A stretch of DNA of 64,000 bases from NCBI GenBank assembly GCA_003024785.1, contig PUQB01000812.1, positions 1-64,000 of the forward strand, given 5' to 3'. Below the pieces are notes generated by a model. It saw only the letters and a list, made by a program, of their open reading frames with translations. It did not search any database and had not been told where the DNA came from. A program made the position numbers and the translations under genes. This stretch comes from Selaginella tamariscina (taxonomy: Eukaryota > Streptophyta > Lycopodiopsida > Selaginellales > Selaginellaceae). Of this stretch, positions 21,315 to 45,171 are shown one piece after another; position 1 is the first letter of the stretch; every line of letters starts with the position of its first letter.

Positions 21315-21319
21315 CTTGA

Positions 21320-21824: not shown

Positions 21825-22150
21825 TACCAGTTGTAGGTTGGCAAAACCCAGCTGGTGGAGCTGTGAAGACTATGCCTCAATACGAGATTGAGGGCTCAGC
21901 TATCACACAGAACTACAGTGCTTGTGTGGAGGAGTTACAGCTGTAAGCTGGCAAAATCTAGCTGGTGGAGCTGCACAAAGACTGTGCCTCAATACGAGAT
22001 TGAGGACTCAGTTATCACACAAAGCTACAGTGCTTGTGTGGAGGAGTTACAGATGTAGGCTGGCAAAACCTAGCTGGTGAAGCTGCACAAAGACTGTGCC
22101 TCAATACGAGATTGAGGGCTTAGCTACCACATAGAGCTATAGTGCTTGTG
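21825..22150 (+). repeat. Tandem repeat shared with the small gypsy element
   Basis: Three units of about 115-125 bases marked by CTCAATACGAGATTGAGG and GGCAAAACCCAGCTGGTGGA. The same unit fills 28,905-29,570 of the gypsy element in copy 2, so this is a remnant of that family outside the element. Confidence 0.85.
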
Positions 22151-22159
22151 AAAAATTTC

Positions 22160-22470
22160 AGAATGAAAACTCTACAAAAGCAAGAAGTTGAACTCCAACC
22201 TTCTGTATGCGTGACAATGGATATTTGATGATCCACCCTTGATCGAATAAATTGCCAAAAACCTCCACGTTAGGTCAGGTGGATATGGAAGTTTCTTAGT
22301 AGCAAAAACTGGATCAATAGAAAGGATAGCAACCCGAACATCATTTGTCCCAAGTAGTTGATGATGTACTATGGAGTTTGGATCACAATTGTCAATTGTT
22401 CCTACTGCCACAACATCGCCCTTGTTGTTGAGGAGAAGAACTTTATCACCGATTGCAACAGATGAAACTT
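22160..22470 (-). pseudogene. Transposase-like C-terminal module (DUF8039-like)
   Basis: Reads IGDKVLLLNNKGDVVAVGTI, then DPNSIVHHQLLG and AILSIDPVFATKKLPYPP. The pattern, a short K-V-x-L strand, V-A-x-G-T-I, D-P-N-x-x-V-H and a strand ending before L-P-Y-P, resembles the beta-rich C-terminal module of plant En/Spm (CACTA) transposase-related proteins. The same module, diverged, starts the DUF7869-like genes (DKVCLLRNNEIISTRTVEI). Family name is from memory of the pattern, so tentative. Confidence 0.45.
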
Positions 22471-23507: not shown

Positions 23508-23535
23508 TATGCATGTTGTAACTAAAATGGGCATG
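23508..23535 (+). repeat. Inner terminal inverted repeat of element copy 2
   Basis: 28-base repeat facing 45,144-45,171. The preceding bases (…GGAGCTTG) belong to a decayed exon-like repeat of the central spacer. Confidence 0.65.
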
Positions 23536-24179
23536 TCTGTAGTCCCATTTTTAATAATTAGTAATTTCAGTTATTTAATTAGCATTTTCTAATATTAAAG
23601 GAATATTCTTTAGAATATATGTTTGAAGACAGAATATTCTTTAGAATATTATATTTTGTAATCGACCCTTTAATAAATTATAGCATTCATGGACCAAAAA
23701 TTAATAACATTATAAAAGTAGAAGGTATTAAATTATATAATATATTAAAAATTAAGGAAAGATAAGAGGTACATTATATAAATATTAATGTTGTTATTAA
23801 AATATTAATATTTAAATATAACATTAAAAATTTGTACTAGTAATAATATATATATAAAAATCCTATAATAATATAGTCAATCTTCCATATCTTTTTTAAA
23901 ATTTATATAGTTAAGTAAAATTTGGTACTATTATTAAAGAGTTTATTAATTATGAATATTAAATATATGATATTTTATAATTTTGTAATTGCTTTATTCT
24001 CATTGCAGTTTTGTTAATCGTGACTTTATCAACGCTTCTTGAACATCCATATCGAATGGATTTAACATTTATAAAACATGCTGGGTCTTTTTGATTGGGA
24101 GACCATGTTTTCTCTAGGCATCCATTATATCTTTCGCTCTCTTCTTGTCGCCTTTTTTGTGGTTTGAACCATGCAACCT
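23536..24179. other. AT-rich inner end of element copy 2
   Basis: Counterpart of 20,561-21,286 in reverse. No gene seen. Confidence 0.7.
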
Positions 24180-27030
24180 TAACATATATTTTTTGTGATT
24201 ACTTCAGGTGTCGATAATTTGACCATCCAAATAGGCTGATTATATGACGCATCTGGAGTAATGAGAACCATCATTAGTTTTTGAAGATCCTTGCAGCAAT
24301 CAAAGTATGCTTTAGGTTTTTGGTTCCTTTGTCCAACAAAGTGTGGGGTTTGCACTTCCACATCACTATGGCTTTATATCGTCTGTGCTCAGTGATGTCA
24401 TTTCAATCTCCTCTCGCCACCTTGTTTTAGGCCAAAAAGGGTGTTGCAATTCTGTACTTGTGACAGTAGGCCCTTAACTCTCGAACAACAGTCTCCCAAT
24501 AGTCGACCACATGCTTATATTTCTGAGTAACCAGTTGCCTTATCAGAATTCTTTGGCATCGATTTTTGAACCCATGCCACATATTTTTTGATGCCATCAA
24601 TAATAACCTCTTGTTCCTTGAGCTGGGCACTCAATGGAATAGGGTCTGGTTGTCCTTCTGGGAGAAGTGGCTTTCCATCTCTCCACTTTTGAAAGCATTA
24701 AGCCCTCTTTCGGTAACCACTCCTGCTCTGATGGCCGTAACTTGTACTGCATAATAGGTATACCATCTCGTATGGAGAAAAAGAATTGTAGCGACAAGGT
24801 GACCAACTAAAGAATCTCCCTCTTTTATATACTCCTTGAGAAATTTTTTGAAGTCTGGCACCTCAGTCACAAGCAAAGCACAACTTTTTTTGGAGATGCA
24901 ATTTTCAAAAAGATTCCATATGCGGTAAGTAAGTGCACTTGTCCTTTTTGTAGAGTTGGAGACCTTGCTGAAGAACGCATCAATATCTTCATGAGTGTGA
25001 CCAACCATAAGGAAACTGAGCGTGATTGTTTCAAACACACCTTTGGCAACAAGCATTGACAAGTATGCTAGCACATATCTAGAAAATAAAAGTAAGTATG
25101 AGCTTGAGAAACCCTTAAGTAAAATGATTTACCTATTTTTGTTCTCGCCTGCACAATTATCCATTGTAAAAGCAAATGACGAGGAAGCTTATTTGATGTT
25201 GAGGACACATGTACACTATTTGAGCTAGATCCCTCCACTGAACCAGAACTCTCAACAGGGCCATCTGTTTTTTGTGCAGGCTGTGACAATGCCTCTCATA
25301 TTCCCAAGTAGCCTCAAGTGCAGACGTGTTCATGAGAGCATTATGTAAAGGTTGAAGGTGTTGTTTTTCACTTTGAGATCACTCATAGGACTTGTTGTGA
25401 GTGGGCTTCAAGGTTTCTGAAACACATGGCCAACGACCCAATAGTGAAATTGGAGTCGCTAGACCAATGTGGAAGTGAAAAGTGTCCATATGATCACAAC
25501 CGTGTCCATGTGTTAGCACACATGTCAATGAAATCGGAAGTTTCATGACATTTCCAAGGCACTTGGTGTTGCAACGAGCTTTGGAATGCTGGTCTTTGAA
25601 TGATCCATCTTGTCATGGATCAAGCACAGGTACTCTGATGGGCGTGACACAAAAGCATGCGGTGTGCATAGTACTGAGACGGCAAGTTGTTGTGCAATCA
25701 TGTGGGCCTCCATCTTCTTTTGAATGGCAGTGATCTCCACCAAGGTTTTTGCACAAGCCTTGCAGCCTTCAATGATGTACAAGTGTCACACTTGGAAAAG
25801 CTAGAGTGTTTTGCAATCTCCACATCCTTAAAATGAGTATTCCATATGTTGTTGAAGGTACCAGTGCAGATTGCTTGGAGCCCCATCAAACTGAGGCACT
25901 TGTTCACATGTTCACACAGCTTCAATTGAGTGTAGATTGAAGGCAAAACCTTGAGATTTTCCCTACCCCTGCATTTGTGGTTCGGCATTTGTGAGGCATC
26001 CTGTCTGCATTTGCTTCCACAAAAGCCTTGAGTATCTCTATGGCTGCCATAATGTGAAAGCGGGTTTTGACCAAGCGAGTGTTCCCATGTTGAGGTTCGC
26101 GCTCCATCTAGCCACTCATCCCTCCGACGGTAGAACGTGGTCTTTGGGATCCCGTATATTGTACCAAGCTTTGAAGCAGATGGCCACCTTATTAAATACC
26201 ATGGATGTACTCTGATAACCTGTGTCCAAGGCCATTCATCAATACACCCAGTTAGTGCAGCATATACAAACTCATGCCTTTACTTTTGGGTGTGCTACAT
26301 TGGTAATTTCATTCCAATCTGTATCTGACAACACTTTTCTTGCAGCAGTCAATCGTGGAAATGCTAGTAACACTTGCAGAAGATGTAGGATCCATCTTGA
26401 CCCTCTTGTCAAAACTTGCAGAGGAAATCTGCAACCCATGAATCGCCTTTTTTCTTACAATAGGACCAATGCAAGGAACCTCTTCAAATATGAGTTGTTC
26501 TTCCGGGTTGTTATTATTGAAATCCAGAATATGTTGAACCATCTTGCCGTCTTAATTCAGATGTTCGCCACCTCACGAGGGATCCAGGATGCAATGTGCC
26601 ATTAGGTGAAACCTCTGTCACAACTACACCCACGAAGTCGGACCCTAGTTTCTCTTCTGACACTGCTTCCATTGGATTTATAGCTGTGATGATGCCTCTC
26701 CAACTTCAATCTCATGAAGAAAGAGAATCACCTCATCCATCACAGCAGGCAAGCCATCATCTGGTAAACTCGTGCTACTATTTGTTTGTGACTCTGCATA
26801 TTCTGTGTCAGCCTTGACTTTCAAATTCCACAATACAGGAGAACCCTCCTCAAATTCCATTCCAAACCTCAACATGCTTGAAAATGGTGTTCACCCATAC
26901 GTACACACAAGATCCTTGGGCAATATTGTGACATGATGCATTATCATCTCGAACTTCCACAGTTCCAGTGCCAACTATCTCGTTTTCCGAAGAAGACATA
27001 CTTTATCTCCAGTATTAAACATATTGTCCT
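24180..27030 (-). pseudogene. DUF7869-like putative transposase gene, copy 2 (uninterrupted)
   Basis: Same gene as 15,960-20,560, reverse orientation, without the solo LTR. It starts near 27,030 after GTGCAG with DNMFNTGDKVCLLRK, continues through a linker with SQTNSSTS, the zinc-ligand-like FSKCDTC (about 25,775-25,800) and the open stretch 25,074-24,631. That stretch has LAYLSMLVAKGVFETITLSF and then VGHTHEDIDAFFSK, followed by a Trp/Tyr-rich tail. These are the DUF7869 core motifs. Frame breaks occur in most exons. The gene is transcribed toward the inner terminal repeat. The putative role is mobilising the element; that the DDE triad survives cannot be shown here. Confidence 0.65.
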
Positions 27031-27169
27031 GCACATAAATAATTGTGTTATTTATGATATCTGTTTATGCAATATTTTAAGAAATCTGAATTACGGTTGC
27101 TTAATAATATGCATGTCAATAATACATAATTATGTATAAGATAATATCTCATGCTTGATTAATACAACT

Positions 27170-27680
27170 GATGGGCGGGATTAATCCCGCCCACGACTCC
27201 CTCCGACGAGGAAGGTCGGCGGGATTAATCCGCCGCCAACTCCCTTCGGAAGAGCGGCGGGATTAATCCCGCCACTCTTCCGACGAGGAAGACCGGCGGG
27301 ATTAATCCCACTCTCTCTCCTCGGAGAGAGTGCGGGATTAATCCCCGCCTCCCTTCGAGGAGGAAGAGTCGGGATTAATCCGCCGCAACTCCCTCCAACG
27401 AGGAAGGCGGCGGGATTAATCCCGCCACACACCCTCCGACGGAAGAGTCGGCGGATTAATCCCGCCGTCGGCTCTCTCCAACTCTTTCTAATAAATTCTG
27501 TTAACTCTTCACATTGGAGAGTTATCGGCGGGATTAATCCCGCCCACTCTTTTTCAGAGGTGAAGAAGCATTGCCCAAATTAATCCTGCCACGGCTTCCA
27601 TGTTTCAAAGAGTTGGTGGCACCTCTTCTAAGAGGCAAAAAGAAATGGCCGGATTAATCCCGCCGCCCCGGCTAATCGAG
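27170..27680. repeat. Palindrome array, inner, copy 2
   Basis: About ten copies of the palindrome, including exact ones near 27,176, 27,263 and 27,414, with CCCTCCGACGAGGAAG-type linkers. It is the reverse-oriented counterpart of 14,320-15,835. Confidence 0.9.
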
Positions 27681-28326
27681 AATATTAAGTAAAAAGGATG
27701 TTTAAACAAGATAAATCCCTAACGGAATATAATGTAATTCTAATGAATTCCTAAACCCCTAAATTCTAATTTTAAAAAAGAATGTAAGAGAGTGAATCTT
27801 TATAAGTATTTCTAAATTTGTTTATACTACTTACTTGTAAACAGCACTGAAGGCGCCATGCTATCCTATAAACAATAGCACCCAATTTAATGTTGCTCAT
27901 GAGCTGATCATTATCAAGAAAAAATAAGATCTTAAAAATGAAAATTACAGAAATGAAGAAACCCTTGTCGAAGAAAGAACTAAATTTGAATTTGAGTGAG
28001 AAATTAAATGCATTTTCAAATTTACATGTCAAACCAACAATACTTATGTCAGAAATTCAAATTTTTGAAAATAAAATAAAATTTAAAATGAGTTGACACA
28101 AATAACCAACATTCTGACATATATACTCTTTAATTCTAATGAGTTTTATAAATTGCATTTAATGTAATTCAAATGATTCAAGCTGTTTAATATTATGAAA
28201 TTTTAGTAATTATTCTACATTCTTAATATTTCAGTATATATTATTAAGTATATATTTAAATATATATACTTATACCAATATATAAATTGATATATTATTA
28301 TGTATCATTTTAAATATATTCATAGT
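27681..28326. other. AT-rich stretch of element copy 2 before the small gypsy insertion
   Basis: Mirror of 13,660-14,300. No gene seen. It ends in the ATAGT target copy at 28,322-28,326; the element resumes at 32,190. Confidence 0.75.
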
Positions 28327-28536
28327 TGTTACGACCCATATAACGAATAAAAGAATATTCCCTAGAAAGGTATAAGCTAGAATATTCCTAAAGAGTTATA
28401 CCTAGATCTAAGAGAATTAAGGGCACACTAATATGGGAAGTCTTTTTAGAGAGCAGCGTCTAGAGACTAGAGACAACTCGGGGGAGGTCGGGTGGTTTTG
28501 TGAGGGTCTCTAGTTTGTACGTAGTGGTGCCTAAAA
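28327..28536 (+). repeat. 5' LTR of the small gypsy element
   Basis: TGTTACGACCCATATAACG to GTGGTGCCTAAAA; matches 31,985-32,189. PBS TGGTATTGGAGC follows at 28,539-28,550. Confidence 0.85.
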
Positions 28537-28842
28537 ATTGGTATTGGAGCAAGGTTCGAGATGAGTGCCGGGTGGGAAGGGATAATACCACCTGTGTGGA
28601 GACGTTGGACACTAAAAAGCAAATTGTCTAAGGAGAAGCAAGCCCAAGGGCAAAAGTTTCAATGGCAACAAGGACAAGTAGACGCTTAAGAAGCTTTAGG
28701 AGATGGAGCGTGGAGAGGAGCACAAAGGAGACTTCTCTAAACCACAAGGTAAATTTCTATTTGTTCTTGCTCAATAGGTAAACTACATGGCACAGGAGGA
28801 GCCATGGAAGGACGACTTGGTGAGCGTCCAGTGTGAGTCCTT

Positions 28843-29570
28843 GTGGATAGCATGAGTAGTGATAACTTTGTGTCAACAAAGTTAGTGGAGGAGTGCAGCT
28901 TGTCCACGAAGACTGTGCCTCAATACAAATTTGAAGGCTCAACTATCACACAGAGCTACAGTGCTTGTGTGGAGGAGTTACAGTTGGAGGTTGGCAAAAC
29001 CCAGCTGGTGGAGCTGCGTGAAGAGCCTCAATACGAGATTGAGGGCTCAGCTATCACACAGAGCTACAGTGCTTGTGTGGAGGAGTTACAGCTGGAGGTT
29101 GGCAAAACCCAGCTGGTGGAGCTACACGAAGAGCCTCAATACGAGATTGAGGGCTCAACTATCACACAGAGCTACAGTGCTTGTGTGAAGGAGTTACAGC
29201 TGGAGGTTGGCAAAAACCCAGCTGGTGGAGCTACACGAAGAGCCTCAATATGAGATTGGGCTCAGCTATCACACAGAGCTACAGTGCTTGTGTAGAGGAG
29301 TTACAGCTGTAGGTTGGCAAAACCCAGCTCGTGGAGCTGCACGAAGACTGTGCCTCAATACAAGATTGAGGGCTCAGCTATCACACAGAGCTACAGTGCT
29401 TGTGTGGAGGAGTTACAGTTGTAAGTTGGCAAAACCCAGCTGGTGGAGCTGAACGAAGACTGTGCCTCAATACGAGATTGAGGGCTTAGTTGTCACACAG
29501 AGCTAAATTGTTTGTGTGGAAAAGTTACAGCTAGAGGTTGGCAAAACCCAGCTAGTGGAGACTTTCTTTC
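28843..29570 (+). repeat. 108-bp tandem repeat region inside the small gypsy element
   Basis: Six or seven units; the first three are exactly 108 bases apart (for example 28,925 to 29,033) and keep one open frame of 36-residue repeats (EPQYEIEGSAITQSYSACVE and on). Later units gain 9 bases (GACTGTGCC) and lose frame. The first units are translatable from 28,843 to 29,253. No gag or protease motif is present in them. Confidence 0.85.
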
Positions 29571-29849
29571 TTGCGAAGCTAGTGCGTGTGGATCCTAAGA
29601 TCTAGTGGAGCACCAAGCACATGAAGCTTGAGTATAGTGAAGTGGGAACAAAGCTTGAGTCTCCAAACAAGTTCTTTTACTGTCACCTTGAGCAAAGCTG
29701 TTGTGCGAGGAGTTTGCTTGACTCTTCCCTCCCGAGCTACCTCATGGCCTACCACATGCAAGAGGTGTGGAGCTGGAATAGGGTACGAAAGCCATTTACC
29801 GTAAGCCATTCTGACTGAGCCATGCTAAGGAGCAAGAGGTTAGAGACAA

Positions 29850-30518
29850 GTGATGGAGCTATTGGAATATGGCTTTATACAACTAAGCAAGTCTCCATTT
29901 GGTGCACCAGTATTAGTTGTCAGGAAGAAGGATGGCACCATGAGGATGTGCATAGACTACAGAGCTCTCAACAAGCAAACAGTAAAGGATAGGATGTCCA
30001 TGCCATGTGTGGATACTATCATGGATCATCTCGATGGAGCTAGAGTGTTCATCAAGATAGTTGGGCATTTCGAGTTCATTGTTATGCCATTTGGCTTAAT
30101 AAATGCCCCTGTCACATTCACTCGGTTGACGACTAAGGTGTTTGGTGACTACTTGCACGACTTTGTGGAGATCTTCCTCAACGATATTCTTATTTACAAT
30201 AAGAATATGAAGGAGCATGTGCATCATTTGCAAACAGTTCTTCAGTTGTTAAGGGAGAACAAGCTCTATGCAAAGAAGAGCAAATGTGCATTTGTTCAGT
30301 GCAAAGTGGAGTATTTGGGTCACATTGTGATGCCAAGTGAAGTGAAGACTGATCCACAAAAGGTGGCAGTGGTGGAGCAATGGCCAATTCCTAGTAATGC
30401 AGAAGAGTTACGGAGTTTCTTGGGCATGGCTGGTTATTACCGACGATATGTCAAGGATTATGCCAAGAAAGCTTCTCTGTTAACTAAGTTGCTGAGGAAG
30501 GACGTTCCCTTTGCATGA
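29850..30518 (+). pseudogene. Reverse transcriptase of the small gypsy element (catalytic Asp lost)
   Basis: Open for 222 residues with [52 protein letters not shown] and KCAFVQCKVEYLGHIV. The catalytic box reads FLNDILIY where YxDDxL is expected, so the first Asp is Asn. About 25 residues between VFIKI and GHFEF (the Asp-bearing first catalytic block, LRSGYHQI type) are deleted. The frame is open but the enzyme cannot be active. Confidence 0.85.
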
Positions 30519-30524
30519 AGTGCT

Positions 30525-31950
30525 TCAGAGAAGAGCAGTTTCCAAGCTTTAAAACAAGCTTTGGTACGTGCACTAGTTTTATGTATTGCAGATCCCTCTA
30601 AGCTTATGAGGTATCATGTGATGCAAGTGGAGTGGCCATTGGAGTTGTACTTATGCAAGAGGGAAGGCCTATTGCTTATAAGAGTCGTACTTGAATCCTG
30701 CATAGCAACAATACTCAACGTATGAGTAAGAACTACTGGTTATTGTTAATGCATTATGAGTTTGCAGGCACTATCTTTATGGTGCAAGTTTCAAAGTGTT
30801 TACAGATCACAAGACTTTGGTGTATCTGTTCAAACAGAAAGAGTTAAACTCTTAGCAAGCTCTCTGGATAGTTAAGTTCATGGAGTTTGGCAAATTTCCT
30901 ATTGAGCATTGCGTGGGAAAGGCTAATGTGGTGGTATATGCTTTGTCACGCATTAGGAGAGCCACAGTGGTTAGAGAATTCCAAACACACTTATGTAATG
31001 CATTAACAAGGACGGTCAGTGAGTTTAGCCAGGTAGTTCAACATGTTCAAGCACAAGACACTGAGGTGCAAGAGCTCAAAGGACAGCTAGAGCCACCATT
31101 TTCATTTTAGAATGGAGTTTTGTACTACAATGGCCATGTGTATCTTCCTCGTGTGGACCATTTGATCAACCAAGTACTATATTTCCATCATGATCACCCG
31201 GAGGCTGGTCATTTTGGGGGGAGGAAAATGTATGAGTTGATCAAGAGAAGATTCTATTGGAGGAATATGAAAGCTAATATTATAGAGTACTGCAGGACTT
31301 GTGACAAGTGTCAAGTAAGGGTGCCTAGGGAAAAACCAAGTGGGCTATTAGTACCATTACCTATTCCAGATAGGCGATGGGGCAATATCTCTATGGACTT
31401 TGTCACCCATTTGCCAAGGACACAGTGGCATTGGAATGAGTCCATATTATGCTATGTTTGGACGGCATTCCAAGACAGCTTTTGAGCTGGGTTTAGCAAG
31501 TAAGAAAGCTCAAGGCAACATGGATGAGGAAGCTAAAGATCTGAGTGTTGAGCTTAGAAACATTCAGAGTTTGTGCAAGAAGAACTTACAAGTAGCTCAG
31601 AGCCGAGCTATCAAGTTTGTTAATTAGCACATAAGCTTTCAAGAGTTCCAGGTGGGAGATTATGTATATCTCTGAGTGGTATTTGCCACACATGTAAGGC
31701 GGAACACTATTGTGGCCTTACAGAAGGGACACAATGATAAGTTGTCTCCTAGGTACTCAGGTCCTTATGAGATTCTAGAGCGTATCGATAAGGTGACATA
31801 TCAACTACGGCTGCTAGAAGGAGTGAGGGTGCACCCAGTGTTTCATGTTAGCCAATTAAAGAGAGTACTCACAAGGAACGAGTCCCGAGTAGATTTTTTG
31901 TGGATGTATAAGGCTAATGATACAGGACCAGTTGAATAAGTTATACTGCC
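30525..31950 (+). pseudogene. RNase H and shortened integrase of the small gypsy element
   Basis: RNase H remnants at 30,540-30,960 (for example ANVVVYALSRIRRATVV). Integrase zinc domain HHDHPEAGHFGGRKMYEL then CRTCDKCQ (31,187-31,312), and SMDFVTHLPR (31,390-31,420). The core between the first Asp and a late segment (SPYYAMFGRHSKTAFELG, 31,439-31,490) is deleted. The C-terminal part, [14 protein letters not shown] to [10 protein letters not shown], ends near 31,860. No chromodomain. Confidence 0.8.
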
Positions 31951-31984
31951 CTTGAGAACAAGGACTTGCTAATGGGGGGAGGAT

Positions 31985-32189
31985 TGTTACGACCCGTATA
32001 ACGAATCAAAGAATATTCCCCAGAAAGGTATAAGCTAGAATATTCCCGCTATACCTAAATCTAAGAGAATTAAGGGCACACTAATATGGGAAGTCTTTTT
32101 AGAGAGCAGCGTCTAGAGACTAGAGACAGCTCGGGGGAGGTCAAGTGGTTTTGTGAGGGTCTTTAGTTTGTACGTAGTGGTGCCTAACA
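31985..32189 (+). repeat. 3' LTR of the small gypsy element
   Basis: TGTTACGACCCGTATAACG to GTGCCTAACA, followed by ATAGT. PPT at 31,971-31,984. Confidence 0.85.
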
Positions 32190-32194
32190 ATAGT

Positions 32195-34100
32195 GTGTTT
32201 ATTAATATTATTTTCTTAATTATTCGAGTAATTAATTTACATTTTCTTATATTAATGGGATATACTTTATTATTTTCTTATTATTCCAAAAATATTCTAA
32301 TATTAAACCTGATTATCATAATTAAATTAGTATCTATTCTTAATTATTTCAGTAATTATTCTACATTTGTATATATTAATGGGATTTTCTCAATTAATTT
32401 CTTATTATTTCAAGAATATTCCAATGTTAAACCTTATTATCAATATTAAGTTAATATATATTATTAAAACTATATATGACTATATATTAGATAAAATGAT
32501 ATATTATTATGTATAATTAAATATGTTCATAGTGTATATATTAATATCAATTCTTAATTACTCGAGTAATTAACCTATATTTCTTTATATTAATGGGATA
32601 TTCTTTATTATTTTCTTATTATTCTAAGAATATTTCAATATTAAACATGATTATCATAATTAATTTAGTTAATTATTTCAGTAATTGTTACATTTGTATA
32701 TATTAATGGGATTTTCTCAATTAATTTCTTATATTAATATCATTTTCACTTTAATTTAATGTTTCTTTTGCACACATATAAACACAATCAAAATATATAC
32801 ACGTGCACATGCATTAGAAGCACTTACAGAGACACATATGTATACACATGCACAAGCCAATGAGTGGATCACGATATAAATAAAGCATCTAGCACATTTA
32901 GAGTTTAAAACCCAAACTAAACATTTATAATTACGCACACTTTACATTGGGACTTACATATGTTTAGTGTTAGAGTAAATTTATATTAAATAATTAAAAA
33001 ATGTGCATGCATTTAATTTATATTAGTATAAATATTTATACTAATATATATATTATGTGCTATGATTGCTTTCAAATGTGTTTTAATATCATTATGTCAT
33101 TTTAAGTTAAAATTGGGTAAATTCAAATATATACATACAATTTTAAAATATGAGCAAATTATAATTTTCATTTTTAAAAAATGAAGTTTTTTAAATTAAT
33201 TGATAAATCAGTAGAATGATTTGTGATTTTATGTTTATCTACTTGACTATCAACAATTCTTTATGCTTGTTTTTTGTGTATTTATATACTAATAATAGAC
33301 TTTTTATACAAATATTAAAATTTAATAATAAAATACTTGCATTGGGTTTAAACCCTAAACCAAATTGGAGAGATATGTTGCTTCTTTATTGAAAACATTA
33401 TGTTCAACGAATGTATGATCCATATGTACTCAATTTGTGTGTATGTAACACATTGAATTTACACATGTAATATGTATGTATGTCTGTGTGTATACACATG
33501 TGTATGTATATATGTGTACTAATATATGCAATGTGTACGAAATTAATTTGTTAACACTCTCTCTCTTCTTTCATACATACACACCATGCATGATCCATAA
33601 TATGTACTGTCTCTCTTCTTTAAAAAATACACACCATGTATGATTCATAATATGTATTGACATTACAATATTATGTACTATGTATGTATGTTTGTGTATA
33701 ATATTATATGTGTGTATATATGTATTACTACACGTGAAAATTTAACACTCTCATAAACACATGTTAAACCCCTACATGATTTATATTTTGGGGTATGTGA
33801 TATACCACACACGCACACAATTTAAAATTATGATAATATAATGAAAGAATATTTGTTTAAGGTCAATATATATTTTATTCTTTTTAGGGTTTAGGTATAT
33901 TCTTGAAAGGAATATTCGATTAGGGTTAATATATATTTTTTTTTTTAGGGTTTAAGTATATTCTTAAGGTTTCAAGAATAAAGGCAGCGGAGGCTGCGAT
34001 GGTGGAATAGAGCAGCTATGCCATAGATCAATAGATCTCTCTCTTAGCAGGTGGCAGTCCAAAAAGGCACGGCGTGCAGTAAGGTTTGAAGGCGCATTCA
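32195..34100. repeat. AT-rich, gene-free stretch of copy 2, unit A
   Basis: Mirror of 4,031-6,099 and 13,340-13,660. Contains the 330-bp AT repeat twice, the CATGATCCATAATATGTA 50-bp type repeat in two units (33,560-33,660), and single copies of the TAGGGTTTAGGTATATTC repeat near 33,890. No gene seen. Confidence 0.8.
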
Positions 34101-34265
34101 CACAAGTGAAATCTCTCTCTCTCACACGCACACTTTGTGTATATTTATTTATTTGTATTTACATATACATTTATATGTGTGTGTATCAAATTTTATTTAT
34201 CTATCTCTCGCACACACACGCACACTCCTGTATATACATACACATATACATATATTTGTATTTAC

Positions 34266-34297
<32 letters not shown>

Positions 34298-34371
34298 ATT
34301 CATCTGTATAATTTTATTTGTTTAGCTCACACAATGCATACACACGATATACATATACACATTTATATATA

Positions 34372-34436
<65 letters not shown>

Positions 34437-34759
34437 TAATATATATATATATATACATACATACATATATTATGTGTGTGTATCTGTATAATTTTATTTA
34501 TTTATCTATCTCTTGCACACACACGCACACTCTTTAATATACATATACATATACATATATACATATATATATGTGTGTGTGTATCTATATAATTTAATTT
34601 ATTTAGCACACACACGCACACACATGATATATATATATATATTTGTGTGTATATCTGTATAATCTTATTGATTTTTCTACTCTGGTACACATATATAAAT
34701 GTGTTTGTTCATCTCTCACACATTCTTGTATATACATATGCATATATATATATTTGTTG
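34101..34759. repeat. TG/TA microsatellite block, unit A
   Basis: Includes a (TA)n run of about 90 bases at 34,370-34,465. Counterpart of 3,086-4,030. All reading frames here are low-complexity artefacts. Confidence 0.9.
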
Positions 34760-35920
34760 TGCACGGGATTAACCAAAGGGCGGCAGGATTAATCCCACCG
34801 CCCTTCACGCAGGTCATGAGCGGCGGATTAATCCCGCCACCCTTCATGCATGCCCTTCCGTAGGTCATGAGCGGCGGGATTAATCTCGTCGCCCTTCACG
34901 CAGGTCATGAGCGGTGGGATTAATCCCGTTGCCCTTCACGCAGGTCATGAGTGGCGGGATTAATCTTGCTGCCCATATATATGTGTGTGCGCGGGATTTA
35001 CGAAAGGGCGGCATAATTAATCTCGCCGCTCTTTGGTTAGCCTCATGGGTGGCTGGTTCGGTGGGATTAATCTCGCTGCTCTTTGGTTAGCCTCATGGGT
35101 GGCTGGTTCGGTGGGATTAATCTCGCTGCTCTTTGGTTAGCCTCATGGGCGGTGGGATTAATTTCGCTGCCCTTCACGTAGGCCCTTCACGTAGGTCATG
35201 AGTGGCGGGATTAATCCCGCCGCCCATGGCCTGCGTGCAGGTCGACGAGATTAATCCCGCCAACCCTTCCATGCCTGGTGGCGGGATTAATCTTGCCGAC
35301 CCTTCCATGCCTGGTGGCGGGATTAATCTCGCCGACCATTCGAGGAGGTGTGAAAGTGGTGGGAGGATTAATTCTGTTCACCAGGCATGGAAGGGTGGCG
35401 GGATTAATCCTGCCACCCTTTATGTCTCAATGAGTGTGAGGCGGGATTAATCCTGCCAACTGCCATTATTCATATGATAGTCTCATGGGCGGATTAATCT
35501 CGCTTACCAGGCATGAAAGGGGTGGCAGGATTAATCCCGCACCCTTCTCTGTCTCCTGAATTGGTGAGCCAAATCAATCCCAACCACTTCTGTATAAGAC
35601 GGAGAAGGGTTACCGCACACCAGTTCAGGGGACTGAGAAGGGTGGCGAGATTAATTCCACCATCCCTTCTATAGTGGGCGAGATTAATCCACCACCCTTT
35701 TTGATCATCTAAAGGGGTGGGCCAAATAAATCCCGCCCAATTCTCTCTGAGACCGAGAAGGGTGGTGGATTAATCCCGCACACCCATTCAGGGGATCGAG
35801 AAGGGTGGCGAGATTAATCCCGCCCACCCTTTCAGGAGGCATAGAAGGGGTGGCGAGATTAATCCCGCCCACCCTTTCAGGAGGCATAGAAGGGGTGGTG
35901 AGATTATACCTGCCACCCTT
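34760..35920. repeat. Palindrome array, outer, unit A of copy 2
   Basis: More than twenty copies or variants with linkers CCCTTCACGCAGGTCATGAG, GACCCTTCCATGCCTGGT and GAGAAGGGTGG. It includes a tandem duplication of a 67-base stretch (CTCTTTGGTTAGCCTCATGG) around 35,030-35,150. The linkers match those of the outer array in copy 1 (2,160-3,085). Confidence 0.9.
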
Positions 35921-36028
35921 CCATGTGAATATATATGTGTATTAATATATATAAGTTGCTTATCTATTTTATTTACTTCTATCATCTTATCATAATATTT
36001 TGAGTAAAAGCCAGTAAACTATGTGAAA

Positions 36029-36111
36029 CTGTCCAAAGCTCACATTTGTGGTGGTTTTAAAACCAAATGTTATTAGTCTTTTGCACTAGCACAAATGTGA
36101 GCTTTGGACAG
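36029..36111. repeat. Foldback hairpin, unit A of copy 2
   Basis: Perfect 22-base inverted arms (CTGTCCAAAGCTCACATTTG and on; 36,029-36,050 and 36,090-36,111) around a 39-base loop. It lies about 140 bases before the leader exon of the ParB-like gene, so it could be a MITE-like insert or a transcript hairpin in its 5' region. Confidence 0.8.
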
Positions 36112-36247
36112 ATAATCCCATCCACTTCTCTCTGAGACAAAGAAGGGTGTATATGAATTTATCAGTGTATTAATTTTGTATATTCGGGTTTATACAAATG
36201 TGTGTGTATTTTTATATGAATTGTAATTATAGTGTATTATTGTACAG

Positions 36248-37251
36248 AAGGACGATTTTATCAAACAAGGAGATTCAGTCATTAGTATGGAGTCGTTGTC
36301 AAATTCTGGGTAAGAATTAAAATAAAATTTATATACTCGGATATGTGCTTGAAGAACTAATTATTTTTATATTCAAATGTGGAATTAAGATAACATTAAA
36401 GATAAGAGGAGGAGATGAGATGGGTAGGGGGATTCTGGAATCAACTTGGCCATATTTTAAAATAAATGGGAAGCACATTGGAGCAACCATGATTGCTATC
36501 AAATTAACCTTTGTCACAACGCGTGGACAAGCAAAACAATGGAAATTATATTTACTAGTCAAGCACCTGAAAGTAAAACCCAGATTGGACGATGCTCGAC
36601 ACATATGCCTTGTTCCATTCAATGTCACGTTCTCGGATTCAGAGGTCTCCAATTACGACAATAATCTTGGGTGGTTTTATCGACTTATGGATAATGACGT
36701 TCACGTGTTCACTAATGATGTTGACTGTGGAGTTCTTCTTCAACTCAACGAAAGCCCATCTATGGAGGGGATCCAATTAAATGTCTACTTTGAAGATCTC
36801 CATACTCATCGAGTAGGTGTATTCTCAGCAGATATTGCTTCACAATACAGAACATCCATAAGTGGAGCAATCATCCCTCTTCTTATTGAAGAAGAACACA
36901 ACGACATCATTAAGAAGATTGAGAGGGTGGCTCGATCCAGGTTCTTTACAGATCACATTCAATTTATTTAGGAATCTTCGAGAGCTGGAAGAGTGTGCCA
37001 AGAACATTAGAATAGCTGCAGTCGGGGATCACACATGTTGATTCGAATTGCAGAAGAAAATCATTTGTCGTTTTGTTAGCTGCACATGTGGCATCCTATG
37101 CTGCAATAAGCCATAAGGAAATGATGTTGTATGATAAGATTTACAAGTGTAAGGTTAAGTATTACAACATCAACCCAAACTTCAATTACATGCCACTCAA
37201 CGAGGAACGTGTAGTTGATCTCATGGAGAAGATGAAGAACGACAATTCTTA
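36248..37251 (+). pseudogene. ParB-like element gene, truncated tandem copy (unit A)
   Basis: Begins with the short leader exon after TTGTACAG (ATG at 36,287). The second exon is open for about 200 residues (36,345-36,971) and is the best preserved version of the N-terminal domain: it includes MGRGILESTWPYF, ARHICLVPFNVTFSD, DNDVHVFTNDVD and LLQLNESPSMEGI. The acceptor before this exon reads TTCAA instead of TTCAG, so splicing may be lost. The gene continues to the start of the ParB-like domain (NEERVVDLMEKMKND at 37,198-37,242) and stops abruptly at 37,251, where the next tandem module begins in AT-rich sequence. It lacks the GQH core, the linker and the methyltransferase-like part. Confidence 0.6.
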
Positions 37252-38590
37252 TATTCAAAAATATTCCAATATTAAACATGATTATCATAATTAAATTAGT
37301 CTTATTCTTAATTATCTCAGTAATTATTCTACATTTGTATATATTAATGGGATTTTCTCAATTAATTTGTTATTATTTCAAGAATATTCTAGTGTTAAAC
37401 CTTATTATCAATATTAAATTAATATATATTATTAAAACTATATATGGCTATATATTAGATAAAATCATATATTATTATGTATAATTTAAAATATGTTCAT
37501 AGTGTGTATATTAATATTATTTTCTTAATTATTCGATGTTTGTTTTGTACATATTATATATAAAACACAATCATAAATTTATATATACATGTGCACATGC
37601 ATTAGAAGCACTTACAGAGACACATATACACACACATGCACATTGCCCTAAACCAAACTTGAGAAATTATATTTTGCTTCTTTATTGAAAAACATCATGT
37701 TCAACGCATGTATGATCTATATGTACTCAGTGTGTGTGTATGTAACACATTGAATTTACACATGTAATATATATGTATGTCTGTGTGTATACACGTGTGT
37801 ATGTATATGTGTACTAATATAATATATGCAATGTGTACGATTTTCATTTGTTAACACTCTATCACTTCTCTCATACATACACAGTGTCACCATGCATAAT
37901 CCCTTCTCTCATACATACACACCATGCATGATCATGATCCATAATATGTAGCCTGTCTCTTCTCTCATACACACACACCATGCATGATCCATAATATGTA
38001 CTGATGTTACAATACTATGTAATATGTATAATGTATATCTGTGTATAACACTCACTCCTCTCATACATAAACACCATGCATGATCCATCCTAACCTAAAC
38101 CCTAAACCCTACATTGAATTTACACATGTAATATGTATGTATGTATGTGTGTATACACATGTGTATGTATATGTGTGTACTAATATATCCAATGTGTATG
38201 AATTTAATTTGTTAACACTTTCACTCTTCTTTCATACATACACACCATGCATGATCCATGTAAATATGTACTGTCTCTCTTCTCTCAAACATACACACCA
38301 TGCATGATCCATAATATGTATTGTCACTCTTCTCTCATACATACACACATACATGATCCTGTACTCTGTCTCTCTAATATTAATATGTACTAATATGTAT
38401 GTATGTCTATGTATAATACTATGTGTGTATATATATATCGCTGCACGTGAAACTTTAACACTCTCATGGACACACACGTGTTAACCCTTGCATGATATTT
38501 ATTCTTGGGGTGTATGTGATACACCCACGCACACGCACACGCTGATAATATACACACACGCACACTCACACTCGTATAATATACACACAC

Positions 38591-38632
<42 letters not shown>

Positions 38633-38704
38633 TTCTCTCTCTCTTCTCTATAGATCTCCATCTCTCGCACACTCGTATACATATACACACACAGATATAC
38701 ACAG

Positions 38705-38756
<52 letters not shown>

Positions 38757-39074
38757 TATTTATTTATCTATATATATGTGTGTGTGTGTGTTTGTTTATC
38801 TGTATGATTTTATTTGTTTCACACATGCATACACACGATATACATATACACATATATATATATATACCTATGTATACATACATATATTATGTGTACCAGT
38901 ATCTGTATAATTTTATTTTATTTATCTATCTCTCGCACACACACGCGTATATACATATACATAACATATATATGTGTGTGTGTGTATCTGTATAATTTTA
39001 TCTGATTTGACTATCTCTGGCACACACACGCACTCTCCTACACACACATATACATATATATATCTATGTGTGTG
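37252..39074. repeat. AT-rich and microsatellite part of the duplicated module, unit B
   Basis: From 37,252 the sequence jumps into AT-rich DNA equal to about 32,284 onward, then repeats the CATGATCCATAATATGTA units (37,870-38,360), a telomere-like CCTAAACCCTAAACCCTA at about 38,095, and TG/TA microsatellites with two (TA)n runs (38,593-38,630 and 38,710-38,753). No gene seen. Confidence 0.85.
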
Positions 39075-40010
39075 TGTGTAGCGGCAGGATTAATCCGCCG
39101 CCATTTCAGGCCCGAGTGAAGGGCCTGGGCGGCAGGATTAATCCCCGCCTACACATGCCATGCGCAGAATTGGGCGGGATTTATCTCGCCGCCATTGGCC
39201 TGCCTGAAGGGCCTAGGGCGGGATTAATCCCGCCGATTCCGCACAGGGCATTGGCGTCGGCGGGATTAATCCCGCCGCTAAGGCCGAGTGAAGGGCCTGG
39301 GAGGATTAATCCCGCCGCGTACGCATGCCCTGCGCAATCGGGCGGGATTTATCCCGCCAATTGGCCTGCCTGAAGGGCCTAGGGGCGGGATTAATCCCGC
39401 CGATTCCGACAGGGCGGATTAATCCCGCCGACTAAGGCCCGAGTGAAGGGCCTGGGCGGCGGGATTAATCCCGCGTACGCATGCCCGCGAATCGGGCGGG
39501 ATTATCCCGCCGCCAAAGGCCTGCCTGAAGGCCTAGGCGGCGGGATTAATCCCGCCCGATTCCGCGAGGGAATTGGCGTCCGGCGGATTAATCCCGCCGC
39601 ATAGGGACCGAGTGAAGGCCCTGGGCGGCGGGATTAATCCCGCCGAGCCTTCAATGCCTGTTGGAGGAATGAATCCCGCCACCCTTCCTTTTTTCATTGG
39701 TGAGTCGGACCAATCCCAAACGTTTCTGTCTGAGACGTAGAAGGTTTACAACATACCAATGGAGAGAACTGGGAAGGGTGGAAATTCATTTAACCATCCC
39801 TTACATGGTGGGCGAGATTAATCCCGCCTCCTTTCTGGAGTCACTGAAGGGGTGTGAAATAAATCCTGCCCAGTTCTCTCTGAGACCGAGAAGGGTGGCA
39901 AGATTAATTCCGCACTCCCGTTCAAGGCCTCCAGAAAGGTGGCGAGATTAATCCCGCCCACTCTTTCAGGAGGCATTGAAGGGGTGGCGAGATTAATCCC
40001 GCCGCACCTT
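39075..40010. repeat. Palindrome array, outer, unit B of copy 2, with higher-order structure
   Basis: About twenty palindromes. From 39,075 to 39,640 they form a higher-order unit of roughly 155-166 bases marked by TTGGCCTGCCTGAAGGGCCT at 39,195, 39,361 and about 39,515, each unit holding four palindromes. This is the most homogeneous and thus probably the youngest of the arrays. Confidence 0.9.
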
Positions 40011-40119
40011 CCATGTGAATATATATGTGTATTAGTATATATAAGTTGCATATCTCATTTTATTTACTTTTATCATCTTATCATAATATTTCGAGTAAAA
40101 GCTAGGAAACTATGTAAAA

Positions 40120-40202
40120 CTGTCCAGAGCTCACATTTGTGGTGGTTCTAAAACGAAATGTTATCTTTCTTTTGCACTAGCACAAAGGTGAGCTTTGGAC
40201 AG
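40120..40202. repeat. Foldback hairpin, unit B of copy 2
   Basis: Same hairpin as at 36,029-36,111, with one change in each arm (CAGAGC and AAAGGTG), upstream of the unit B ParB-like gene. Confidence 0.8.
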
Positions 40203-40307
40203 TTAATTCCGTCTACTTCTCTCTGTGTATTATTTTTGTATATTCGGGTTTATACAAGTGTGTGTGCGTTTTTATATGATTTGTATTCATAGTGTATTAT
40301 TTTGCAG

Positions 40308-43300
40308 AAGGACGATTTAATTAAACAAGGAGATCGAGTCATTAGTATGGAGTCGTCGTCAAATTCTGGGTAAGAATTAAAATAAAATCTGTTATACTCG
40401 GATATGTGCTTGAACTAATCATTTTTGTATTCAGATGTGGAATTGAGGTGACATTAAAGACGAGAGCAGGAGAAGAGATGGGCAGGGGGATTCTGGAATC
40501 AACTTGGCCATATTTCAAACTAAACGGGAAGCGCATTGGAAAACCATGGTTGCTGTCAAACTAACCTCTGTCACATCGCATGGACAAAAACAATGGAAAG
40601 TGGGTGTGCTAGTCAAGCATCCGAAAGCATGCTGTGAACCCAGATTGACGATGCTCGACACATATGCCTTGTTCCATCCAATGTCACGTTCTCGGATCCA
40701 GAGGTCGCCAGTTACAACATTAATTTCGGGTGGTTTTGTCGACTTGTGGATAATGACGTTCACGTGTTCACTAATGATGTTGACCTTGGAGTTCTTCTTC
40801 AACTCAACGAAAGCCCATCTATGGAGGGGATCCATCTGGATGTCTACTTCGAAGATCTTCAGACTCATCGAGTAGGTGTATTGTCAGGAGATATTGCTTC
40901 ACAATACAGAAAATCACAAGTGGAGCAATCGTCCCTCTTCACATTGAAGAAGAACACAGCGACATCATAAAGGAGATTGAGAGGGTGGCTTGGTCTCAGG
41001 TTCTTTACAGATCACGTTCAATTTGCTTAGCAAATTTCGGGAGCTGGAAGAGTGTGCCGAGAACATTAGAACAGCATCAATCGGGGATCACACATGTTGA
41101 TTCGGATCGTAAAGAAAATCATTAGTCGTTTTGTCAGCTGCACCTGTGGCGTCCCATGCTGCAATAAGCCACAAGGAAATGATGTTGGATGATAGGATTT
41201 AAGTGTAGGGTTAAGTATTGCAGCGTCAACCCAAACTTCAATTACAGGCCACTCAATCAGGAACGTGTAGCTGAGCTCATGGAGAAGATGAAGGACGACA
41301 ATTCTTACACCGTTCCACATAATGCTGTTTTGTGCGCATACTACGAGAGAAACAAAGGCGCTGACAAAGTGTGGATCACAACACCGGAACAAATGAGAAG
41401 GTTCAGACGGAGAATAGAAAATCAGTTAAGTACTACATCATTAGTGGCCAGCACACAATAACGGCAGCCCAACGACTTCTCGACGAACACAACAAAGGAA
41501 CGATGGCAACAAAACTTTCCGAGCATACCCGTGAGAAGCTGACGAAAAGATCGGCGTTTTTAGCGAAGCCGAATCTCACAATCGAGCAGTACCATAAGTT
41601 ATCGGCGGAATGGGACGCTGCAGACACCAACCACTACAACAGCAAAATATGGGAGAAGTTCAAACACACGCGAGCCGTGTGGGAATCTCTTCAGCGACCA
41701 CAAAGAGCTACCGCAGGGAATACACAATCTGCGGACTACCGGGTAAGCAAATTGTTTGGGCGGGATTTATCTCGCCGGTATATTAATCTGTCTTTTTCTC
41801 AGAGAGTTGAAGAAATTGTAGCAGTTGATTTTGCCCAGGTGGGCGGGAAGGAAACATCCTTTTTGATGATGTTGATTTCTTGTCCCGAGATAGGATCTTT
41901 GCGAAATGGTTGGGGATTATGGAATCCTTTGCAAAAGGAACACTGAAGAAGAAGCAGACAAGTGAAGTGGAGCCCTCAGAGAAGTCTGCAAAGAAACCCA
42001 GTAAGACGCCGAAGGCTAAGTCTGTTCAATCTATAAAGGATGTAGACAACGATTTCAAGCTCACATGGTTGAAGCCTTTAAATGGAACAACGATGGAGGA
42101 GATGGAAGTCTTGGCTGATTTGGTGATTGATGGCAAATTACAATTAACAACAGCAGCCCACCTCTCCTTTTCATCTCAAGGCAATGGAGTTGAAGACGGT
42201 CAGGCACTTCAAGGAGTGGTTGGGAATACACTGCCACAAACTGGGTTGGATTTCGGCTTCAACATACGAAGAGGTCAGCAAATATTTGCATGTGACAAAT
42301 GATGATATGCTTGTCGAATGGGTGAATCAATCGGAAGATCTGGGCAAGAATCTATTGCACGCCAACGCCAAAAAGGAGAACATTGCGATGACGCCTTCTC
42401 TTATGGCAGTCCTTCAGCAGCGGAGAACCGAGTTGAACCTTATAAAGGAGGATGCTACGAATCACGACAAGCCCTACAGATGTTTGTTGTTGGATTCGGA
42501 GACTTTATGGGGTACCATCACTGCTTGTAGGAAACCGTTTCAATTGTTCGTGATGGATCGGCGGGTGTCAAAAAATCCTTCGACAGACAGGACACTAGAG
42601 GATTGGTGGAGAAACTTAGCCGTGCAAGTATGTACAAAGAAGGTATTTATTATTGAATTCATACTTGCACTCTTGACTGATATCTACTTTTCAGGTATTT
42701 ATTTCTTGATTCTTGCTCATGTCACCGATACCTTTGCCTTCTCCTTTGCCAAGAGGAATAAACATCGTTGGACAGGATTTTATATGAATGATGCTGATCC
42801 GAAGTGCATTGATTCGGTTGTTCACTTGGTTGTTAGGAATGCGCCAAACAATTTCAAACTTCCAAATGACTGGCCAGGCATCTGTTTGCACTCCAACGGC
42901 CCTGAACCTCCATCCGATACACCGATAGGTGAGAGTGACGTATTCGGCAATGTACGTTATCCAAACATCACAAGTCAAGCGGCACGGAGCATCGTCAACT
43001 TGATCAGGGGTCCTCACAGTGATGCGTGGGTTTTTGACTACTGCACTAGGGGGTCCGTCTTGAAGGAGTGTTACCTTCGGCATACATGTGTATTTGCCGT
43101 TGAAAAGGATAAGACCATGGTTGAGGACCTGAACAAGTGGATAGATAGGTTCTCAACTGAGTACCCCAACGAATCCATAAAGGAGTATTTGAGAAAGTTC
43201 CCTCCAGATAAGTGCGATAGCTCTGAAGACGAATCTGGTTCAATGTCGGAGTCTGAGGACGAACTTCAATCAGATATTAGACCGGAAGTTATCTCGAGGA

Positions 43301-43464
43301 GTACAGAACATTCGCACACTCCATTACCCATGGAAACATCAATAGAAGATGCAGAAGATCTTGAACCATCTCACAAGCGGCTTAGACCTTCTTCGCCTCA
43401 CTCAGAAGGTAATAGCGAAGAAGAATTGTTAATGAATTCTAGAGTGACGAATAGTTGTAAATGA
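40308..43464 (+). pseudogene. ParB-like plus degenerate DNA-methyltransferase-like gene (unit B, longest copy)
   Basis: Likely start is ATG 40,347 (MESSSNSG); the exon splices at GGGTAAG to ATGTGGAATTG at 40,435. Order of parts: N-terminal domain to about 41,040; ParB-like region with VNPNFN and ISGQHTITAAQ (41,226-41,468); intron 41,742-41,801 containing the palindrome; a Lys-rich linker (KKKQTSEVEPSEKSAKK); then an open 426-residue stretch from 42,184. That stretch has LLLDSETLWG (about 42,484-42,513) where beta-class N4/N6 methyltransferases have DPPW, later VFDYCTRGS (about 43,027-43,053) where they have the FxGxG loop, and AVEKD. The order of motifs fits that class but key residues are missing, so catalysis is doubtful. 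It ends in an acidic Ser-rich tail. At least three frame breaks (near 40,540, 41,040-41,200 and 42,175) make it a probable pseudogene, unless they are assembly indels. Confidence 0.55.
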
Positions 43465-43711
43465 GTGTAACATAAGGCATTTTTGTATATTTCGTTTATA
43501 TTTGTACAGAAAATAAATTCTCAAGGATTAATGAAGCTTTTAGTTCAAACATGGGTCACACATTAACAAGGTAAATAATATACCTTGATAATTTTAAGGT
43601 CAGCTAATTATCATTTTGCAGATGTAATGAAACAATTGAGAACATGGATTTTCAGCATTGGCATGAGGTAAGAGAGGGGTTTGGCGACAATTTCTTGTGC
43701 CACATGTCAGA

Positions 43712-44891
43712 ATGACAGAGTTCATGCAGGAAATGGATAATAATGCAGCTCAAAACATCGTTACCATGGGGGCCACTTCAGTTTTTTCATCATCATTTTT
43801 ATTGGCTTCAGTTCCGAAATCAATTTCTTCAGCGCATGCAATATCTGAATCTTGTAAGGATGATGTACAATTAAATGATGAAGGGATAGGCAACGAGATA
43901 GTGGCAACGGATAAATGTGAAAGGGAGCAAACAAGTGATTTGCAAAGTATTCAAGAGGCAACGCTATCTCATGTTACTCATGGCCATATTGTGTTGTTGG
44001 ATGTCAATGGTGTTCTGCTTCATCGACAAAGGCCCGAGGATAGGAAAAAAGAAATCAAACAAGGAGATTTCATTCCTTGTCATGGTAAATTTCGATATGA
44101 TATTATTTTTCGTCCAGGGTTGGATCGTCTCTTTCAAAAGCTTAAGGAGATGGGTGCGCTTGTGGGGATTTGGTCATGCATTGCAGATTCATAACTTAAC
44201 ACCGCTGTTGAATTTGCTTAAGAAACATTGTAGTGTTGCAGAAGAGGTGATTCGTAAAGATTGGATTTTTGACCAGCGAATATGTTATAAACCTCTCGAA
44301 TTTCACAATATAAGAAAGGAAAGCAAGCCATACTTCTTCAAGAATGAAAGAATAATTGGGACTCATGGGGAGATCAGTCGCTTAAGGATAATGAAGAAGC
44401 ACAGATGTTAGTAGTAGACGACTCTCCTCAGAAGGCTATGCTCAACCAAAACATTGCTTGTATTCATCCAATCACTTTCGATCCATATTCTGATACGATA
44501 TCATGGATGAGCTAGTGAACTACTTGGATACGTGCCTCAGAAAGAAGAATCTCGAAAATTTTTGTGAGCAGTATCCACCGTATCATACATTTCCTGAAGC
44601 TTTTCTTTCTCGTGATTTTGAATTTTATAAAATGAAGGATAGCAACCGGGCGCTTTATAATATTATTCTTAAGGAACGTCATTTTTAGATGAGCCTTTAT
44701 GCAGACCTGGTCTTATTACATCTTATGTATTAACAAGGATGGCAACTCCCAATTGCATTCGTGAGAGTGTTAGGTGGTGGCAACAACATCAAGATATTGA
44801 CCAAAATGATTTGATTAATCCGGAGAGTGATGATTTAGACAAAATGAGGAGATTTCTTGTATATAGGAAGAAAGTATTTATAAAAAATTAA
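43712..44891 (+). pseudogene. HAD/NLI-interacting-factor-like phosphatase gene inside the element
   Basis: Encodes a HAD-superfamily protein of the FCP1/NLI type. From ATG 43,712 there is a 90-residue Ser-rich leader, then HIVLLDVNGVLLHR (about 43,983-44,024), the catalytic loop; the second Asp is Asn, as in the plant subgroup with DLNG. FRPGLDRLF and GALVGIWSCM follow (44,110-44,178), then MLVVDDSPQKAMLNQN (44,404-44,451) with the C-terminal Asp pair, and a tail ending at about 44,891. Frames change near 44,178, 44,400, 44,500 and 44,685, so this copy is broken. An exon-like fragment precedes it at 43,621-43,668. It lies between the ParB-like gene and the outer terminal repeat and so appears to be cargo. 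Plant HAD proteins of this type are host genes; capture is inference. Confidence 0.65.
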
Positions 44892-45143
44892 CATGTTGAT
44901 AAGAAATGATTTCATTTGTAATTATGTTTGATAGTATTTCTTCATTATTGTAAACTATTTTTAGAATAATATGAATATTCTAAGATATTTTAGGAATATT
45001 CCTTACTAAGTAAGGTTATTGAAGGATTAATTAATTAATTAATTAATATTTAAGGCTTAATTACATATTAATTAAATGATTAATTAATAATTAAAACTTA
45101 AGTATTAATTAGTAATTTATTTTATATTCCCATTTTCACGTAT

Positions 45144-45171
45144 CATGCCCACTTTAGTTACAACGTGCATA
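45144..45171 (-). repeat. Outer terminal inverted repeat of element copy 2
   Basis: Reverse complement reads TATGCACGTTGTAACTAAAG and on, with two differences (T/C and A/G) from 23,508-23,535. The adjacent inward sequence is AT-rich with a GGAATATTC word, as at the other end, but is not alignable by eye. Confidence 0.55.

Follow-up and report, generated by a model that had tools for sequence, protein, structure and literature searches.

A DNA transposon of about 14 kb in Selaginella tamariscina with 27-bp inverted ends, a DUF7869 gene and arrayed palindromes

Introduction

Positions 1–64000 of a 93,416-base contig from Selaginella tamariscina (contig C1185; this 64,000-base stretch is referred to as the window) contain a 21.7-kb unit with inverted ends, which encloses a DUF7869 gene, arrays of a short palindrome, an accessory gene resembling ParB and methyltransferase genes, and a HAD/NIF phosphatase-like gene. 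Is this unit a mobile element, which of its genes would move it, and what might the other genes and the palindromes do? The original prediction proposed a giant DNA transposon carrying a DNA-binding/methylase-like module as cargo, in a combination not recognised as that of a described family. We compared the window with the 300.7-Mb assembly from which it comes (1,391 contigs, identified here by C-numbers). The element is abundant, its terminal inverted repeats (TIRs) bound the homology in independent copies, and it is flanked by a constant 4-bp target duplication; it is a TIR DNA transposon. We consider it likely that it represents a cut-and-paste family with a length near 14 kb, that most of its movement occurs in trans, and that its accessory protein may bind or mark the element's own palindromes.

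Results

Element ends and target duplications

The ends of the unit (23508–23535 on the plus strand and 45144–45171 on the minus strand) are identical at 26 of 28 positions, as originally described, and a simple model expects about 0.0007 such pairs in 64 kb. The segment at 21287–21314 on the minus strand matches 23508–23535 exactly in the opposite orientation, which confirms the second, inverted copy that had been placed at 21,314. The TIR proper is 27 bp long and starts with ATGCA, the first of the 28 bases belonging to the flank, because the base preceding ATGCA is G rather than T in three of the five elements with a duplication. At up to two mismatches, the 28-mer has 1,858 forward and 1,747 reverse matches in the assembly (3,605 in all); the reversed 28-mer, used as a control, gave 0 and 0. 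The 100 end matches listed divide into 71 with AAAGTGG, the right (R) type, and 29 with AAAATGG.

Copies 1 and 2 of the window share approximately 85–91% identity in the longer aligned pieces of a self-comparison, and their homology ends at the end repeat (21315/23507); the far end of copy 2 lies off the contig. Comparison with other copies places the right limit of copy 1 at 45176 and 45172 (C1026), 45170 (C1193) and 45170 (C452). A clean copy of 14.3 kb (C1193:522487–536805) displays, in order, the left (L) end, the DUF7869 gene (minus strand), a palindrome array, an AT-rich middle, a second array, the accessory gene (plus), the HAD gene (plus) and the R end, which carries one inserted base. 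This copy is inserted into an accessory-gene copy of greater divergence, of which the window contains an uninterrupted paralogue; it is flanked by TAAT on either side (read by eye), and the paralogue site in the window has a single TAAT.

Six elements besides that on C1193 were located by their DUF7869 and R coordinates. With the element on C25 dropped from these seven for want of an L end, five of the six testable single elements show exact 4-bp target duplications (ATTG, ATAG, AAGT, AACG and TAAT in C102, C302, C3, C46 and C1193, respectively), for which a simple base-composition model gives a chance probability of ∼2e-11. Several element pairs showed 4 bp ahead of ATGCA, which led us to abandon TA or TATA as the target duplication.

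The 21.7-kb span of copy 1 exceeds the ∼14-kb element because it includes a gypsy insertion and an internal tandem duplication. The earlier estimate of about 17.8 kb, reached by removing the gypsy element, is thus too large, as the tandem duplication was left in. This duplication, which is not seen in copy 2, doubles the 5′ portion of the ParB-like gene (36.3–37.25 kb and 40.3–41.3 kb). The gypsy element itself carries a ∼108-bp tandem repeat, in frame within part of its coding region (28917–29560).

The DUF7869 gene

In every examined copy retaining the region, the gene beside the L end is the DUF7869 gene. PF25273 matches one unaltered exon at 6.5e-23 and the stitched read-through protein at 1.3e-46, in agreement with the original assignment, and a GT-AG intron is present in both copies of the window. 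DUF7869 is the sole transposase-like family matched among the stitched genes. The exon has at least 150 places in the assembly (6,621 first-look candidates), and those listed fall in groups at ∼79–95% and 75–80% identity. We found 158 relatives, the best of which is 49% identical and derives from environmental data; named relatives include those of the liverworts Riccia and Calypogeia, the moss Ceratodon, bivalves, corals and echinoderms. A search of viral contigs returned 3 and 62 stretches with the pattern, and no relative. Four residues (D169, D172, D327 and D369, P0002 numbering) are at least 90% conserved across 54 relatives and form three well-separated acidic sites (D169/D172, D327 and D369), with 42 residues between the last two. 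On the strength of this D-D-D pattern, DUF7869 is probably a DDD transposase, in which the acidic residues would form an RNase H-like active site.

Gene order

The accessory-gene open reading frame (ORF) has 131 matches in the assembly, which merge to 98 loci. Gene-order counts are samples from the places listed (150 for DUF7869 by 98 for the ParB-like gene). Seven of the nine DUF7869/ParB-like pairs lying 6–20 kb apart, the window included, are in the expected divergent order, compared to 0.34 expected, and the proposed co-occurrence of these genes is borne out. All 10 pairs of a DUF7869 gene and an exact R end within 20 kb (9 genes) have the expected order and orientation, with spacings of 9.0–13.4 kb. 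The ParB-like gene and an R end form three pairs within 20 kb, that on C136 in the expected order.

A recurring head-to-head pair

The head-to-head arrangement of the two copies in the window, with its ∼2.19-kb spacer, recurs on C1026, C68 and C448 and in part on C823, at 93–98% identity; the second copy is therefore not a chance neighbour. On C1026 the outer R ends (569736 and 614514) are both flanked by ATAT, while the arms taken individually have no matching flanks; copy 1 of the window alone likewise has unmatched flanks (TTGT/ATTT). The ATAT flanks fit movement of a 44.8-kb R-L-spacer-L-R unit. The competing explanation, that the pair and its copies are segmental duplications rather than a composite transposon, is a serious minority view: it draws on the same recurrence of pair and spacer, and outer ends on both sides are seen on C1026 only. 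It is opposed by the ATAT pattern and by the window and C1026 copies, which cease to match at the outer R end (45170, with the C1026 match reaching 45176) and have different flanks beyond it. Movement as a composite is our preferred account of the pair.

Several observations concern the surroundings of these copies. The spacer contains a 112-bp version of the gypsy element's ∼108-bp tandem repeat (21828–22150). Just past the R end, positions 45222–45413 hold a fragment resembling the HAD gene (44150–44370, 81%), followed by gypsy-like ORFs; the same join is present on C448, and copy 1 thus borders on what is left of a related element. One copy on C452 meets, with its right half, the L end of a second copy. 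Between the copies on C452 and C1193, identity is 99% over the right 3.2 kb and ∼95–97% in other parts, which suggests exchange between copies.

Palindrome arrays

The predicted palindrome arrays are present, close to where each of the two divergent genes starts. They consist of an 18-bp palindrome, GGCGGGATTAATCCCGCC, at spacings of mostly 36–50 bp. At up to four mismatches the window holds 80 sites, all inside the two copies, and none was found in the 2.2-kb spacer or in the 18.8 kb right of copy 1. Genome-wide, 46,888 sites were counted at up to one mismatch, regardless of position relative to elements, and the reversed control gave 0. Long TG/CA and TATA microsatellites lie mid-element, between both arrays, in copies 1 and 2.

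We examined 363 sites, chosen at up to four mismatches from the stretches under study. Changes numbered 0, 3, 0 and 2 at the A, T, A and T positions of the core, 16 and 14 at the two centre bases, and 21–79 at the G/C positions. Changes at the A/T/A/T positions (5/1,452) are far rarer than at the central two bases (30/726; p = 1.6e-10 by a Fisher test that ignores relatedness and mutation bias).

We favor the accessory protein as the ligand of these sites. The arrays might instead serve the transposase, as internal binding sites or enhancers, or host silencing, an alternative that we find credible if less attractive: an array also adjoins the DUF7869 gene, and the accessory protein is a putative ParB. 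Yet the arrays are not subterminal, since at least 3.7 kb separates them from the left terminus and ∼5 kb from the right one, and they also flank the accessory gene, whose apparent intron contains a single palindrome. Less likely is a GC-rich satellite without function, expanded in a small number of master copies and carried along with them. Spacer sequences and unit lengths (36–50 bp) do differ between arrays, and site numbers vary among copies, but the same 18-bp core is kept throughout and its A/T/A/T positions show the low rate of change described above.

The accessory and HAD genes

The accessory gene, with several GT-AG introns, contains in copy 1 an open frame of 426 aa (42184–43464). 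By eye, one stretch of it (..RPLNQERVAELMEKMKDDN.. YYIINGQHTITAAQRLL), kept in the copies examined, resembles ParB, with the motif GQHTITAAQ, and stretches of the 3′ part are methyltransferase-like. The ParB/methyltransferase assignment is a resemblance of this kind; the domains themselves found no profile support. The protein matched no family in Pfam or NCBIfam, ParB or methyltransferase, and a ParB_N profile searched against the entire assembly gave nothing at E≤10 (the control matched in 11/14 genomes). In hhalign, the five ParB proteins of a shallow, SopB-type reference gave the accessory protein no higher scores than did SopA, RepE, an integrase and shuffled SopB. Word-based searches of ∼5.8 billion proteins yielded 2,366 candidates for the 426-aa ORF, none at E≤0.001, and 6,441 for a 983-aa read-through, none at E≤1; a plasmid tblastn search with the gene gave no result. 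The case for reading the gene as a ParB-methyltransferase thus consists of the resemblance by eye and a published Ectocarpus element (see Discussion), and the profiles do not agree with it.

The HAD/NLI-like gene was correctly predicted, with PF03031 matching the stitched protein at 9.4e-12 and the unstitched ORF at 2.7e-4, slightly under the curated cut-off. Its dN/dS is 0.30–0.37 in six cross-subfamily comparisons and 0.65–0.89 in the other informative ones (one comparison was undefined and one not computable); values are 0.45–1.0 for the ParB-like gene and 0.31–1.08 for DUF7869. Because frame breaks inflate them, these values are weak evidence of constraint.

Outside the two copies, positions 58711–63358 hold probable pieces of a host gene with introns rich in microsatellites and a kinase-like match under the cut-off (PF00069, E = 0.0034). 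Rfam and tRNA searches gave no match. Elsewhere in the assembly, 26 matches to chlorophyll a/b-binding proteins point to a photosynthetic host, and one open frame resembles an Lhcb protein of the green lineage.

Table 1. Positions of the transposon copies and their parts in the window
Feature	Coordinates	Strand	Basis or remark
Transposon copy 1, interrupted by a gypsy element and enlarged by a tandem duplication	23509–45170	+	Ends; limits from other copies
L TIR, 27 bp	23509–23535	+	End comparison, target duplications
DUF7869 gene, likely DDD transposase, frameshift-broken, limits approximate	24400–27002	-	PF25273; alignment of both copies
Palindrome array upstream of DUF7869 gene	27174–27664	.	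18-bp palindrome, ∼40-bp period
Nested gypsy-type long terminal repeat (LTR) element	28326–32191	+	∼210-bp direct repeats 28326–28538 and 31984–32191
Internal tandem duplication	32190–41307	+	32190–37251 repeated in 37246–41307 and onward; self-comparison
Palindrome array upstream of first, partial ParB-like gene copy	34782–35869	.	
Palindrome array upstream of complete ParB-like gene	39083–40003	.	
Accessory gene	40350–43464	+	“ParB-like” motif region ∼41.2–41.5 kb, methyltransferase-like 3′ part; start approximate
Single palindrome in apparent intron of accessory gene	41759–41776	.	Same place in copy 2 at 392
HAD/NIF phosphatase-like accessory gene, frameshifted	43985–44888	+	PF03031
R TIR, 27 bp	45144–45170	-	End comparison, target duplications
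Copy 2, cut by contig end	1–21313	-	Inverted copy of 23508–42167
Palindrome array next to the ParB-like gene of copy 2	2168–3043	.	
Nested LTR element of copy 2	6100–13335		LTRs 6100–7053 and 12382–13335
Palindrome array next to the DUF7869 gene of copy 2	14372–15822	.	
L TIR of copy 2	21287–21313	-	End comparison
Spacer between the two L ends	21314–23508	.	2.2 kb; kept in the same composite on C1026, C68, C448

Discussion

The ends, the target duplications and the gene content uphold the view of a giant DNA transposon with accessory genes as cargo and DUF7869 as its likely transposase. In the mechanism that we propose, the DUF7869 protein would cut at the 27-bp ends and join them to the target with a 4-bp stagger; most copies, being broken, would have moved in trans. 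The accessory protein would bind, and possibly methylate, the 18-bp palindromes and so control or mark the element, and two head-to-head copies could be mobilised as one unit through their outer R ends.

A number of observations weigh against this mechanism. The element on C29 has flanks without a matching duplication, and that on C25 has no recognisable L end in the stretch examined. Among the pairs listed, two DUF7869/ParB-like pairs (C520 and C593) and two pairs of the ParB-like gene with an R end (C166 and C96) are in the wrong order. The copy on C895 retains an L end and a DUF7869 fragment, with no palindromes and no ParB-like gene within 30 kb, and thus partial derivatives exist. One frame break is common to the accessory genes of the young copies on C452 and C1193, so that this gene is not needed in cis. 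A PDB profile search with DUF7869 found no match, and no structure or profile ties the family to a known transposase. The ATAT duplication of the composite is of low complexity and a single case, and GC-to-AT mutation bias could in part lie behind the low rate of change in the A/T core. That DUF7869 is itself cargo, with the transposase supplied by an unseen gene elsewhere, would agree with a catalytic role deduced from conserved acidic residues only, but is very improbable given the gene's constant place beside the L end, its copy number in the genome and its relatives in many eukaryotes.

A more far-reaching idea is that the transposon has its own address system, in which the accessory protein and the arrayed palindromes mark, cluster or co-regulate copies, and head-to-head pairs move as composites. 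The protein would perhaps methylate adenines and act on tens of thousands of sites, with a layout near both promoters like that of bacterial sopC/parS arrays. We regard this as speculative and rather unlikely.

A literature search under the name DUF7869 found nothing, and the literature searched contained no description of DUF7869 elements, of such palindrome arrays or of a two-copy composite sharing an outer-end duplication. The arrays near both gene starts and the composite are therefore the parts for which we found no description. The gene combination, which had been thought undescribed, is not new, because a comparable Sola-1 element from Ectocarpus, 21.5 kb long, has been published in which a ParB-methyltransferase gene lies opposite the transposase (PMC12477816, available text). 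The present results tie the widespread DUF7869 family to a transposon whose ends are defined and whose target duplication is 4 bp. According to the available text of the same source, giant Sola-1 elements carry a ParB-methyltransferase gene opposite the transposase, and the ParB-methyltransferase proteins of algal transposons are proposed to bind and modify their own element, with no target site named there (PMC12477816). An accessory gene together with an element-bound 18-bp palindrome (46,888 places) makes that proposal directly testable.

Among known systems, KDZ and EnSpm elements, as the available text of PMC12477816 describes them, and Starship elements share large size and cargo genes with the Selaginella element; they differ in that DUF7869 is the only transposase-like family matched here and that the duplication is 4 bp. 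The sopC/SopB system of plasmid F (NC_002483) offers an analogy of layout only: its tandem array, in which a ∼43-bp unit containing a palindrome is present in 10.7 copies, adjoins the gene of a DNA-binding protein, much as 18-bp palindromes at ∼40–45-bp spacing do here. The palindrome is another one, SopB and the accessory protein lack profile similarity, and no ParA gene was seen in the element, without a search aimed at ParA.

The closest parallel is Sola1-1_Ec32 of Ectocarpus (21.5 kb; PMC12477816), likened here by its published description. In the available text, it is likewise a giant DNA transposon with nested insertions, a transposase that is often pseudogenised and, on the other strand, an accessory gene. 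Its accessory protein is reported to be ParB-like with a DNA methyltransferase, whereas the resemblance here is by eye and without a profile match; “palindrom” is absent from the main text of that source, and the available text does not mention a HAD gene. The Sola superfamily, as set out in the available text of PMC10741241, comprises DDD elements with a 4-bp duplication and TIRs of 11–1124 bp, some of more than 15 kb, and is known from moss. The 4-bp duplication and the 27-bp TIR agree with this description, as would the putative DDD transposase; most reported Sola elements are smaller (2–9 kb). We file the Selaginella element as a TIR DNA transposon that probably works like, and belongs to, Sola.

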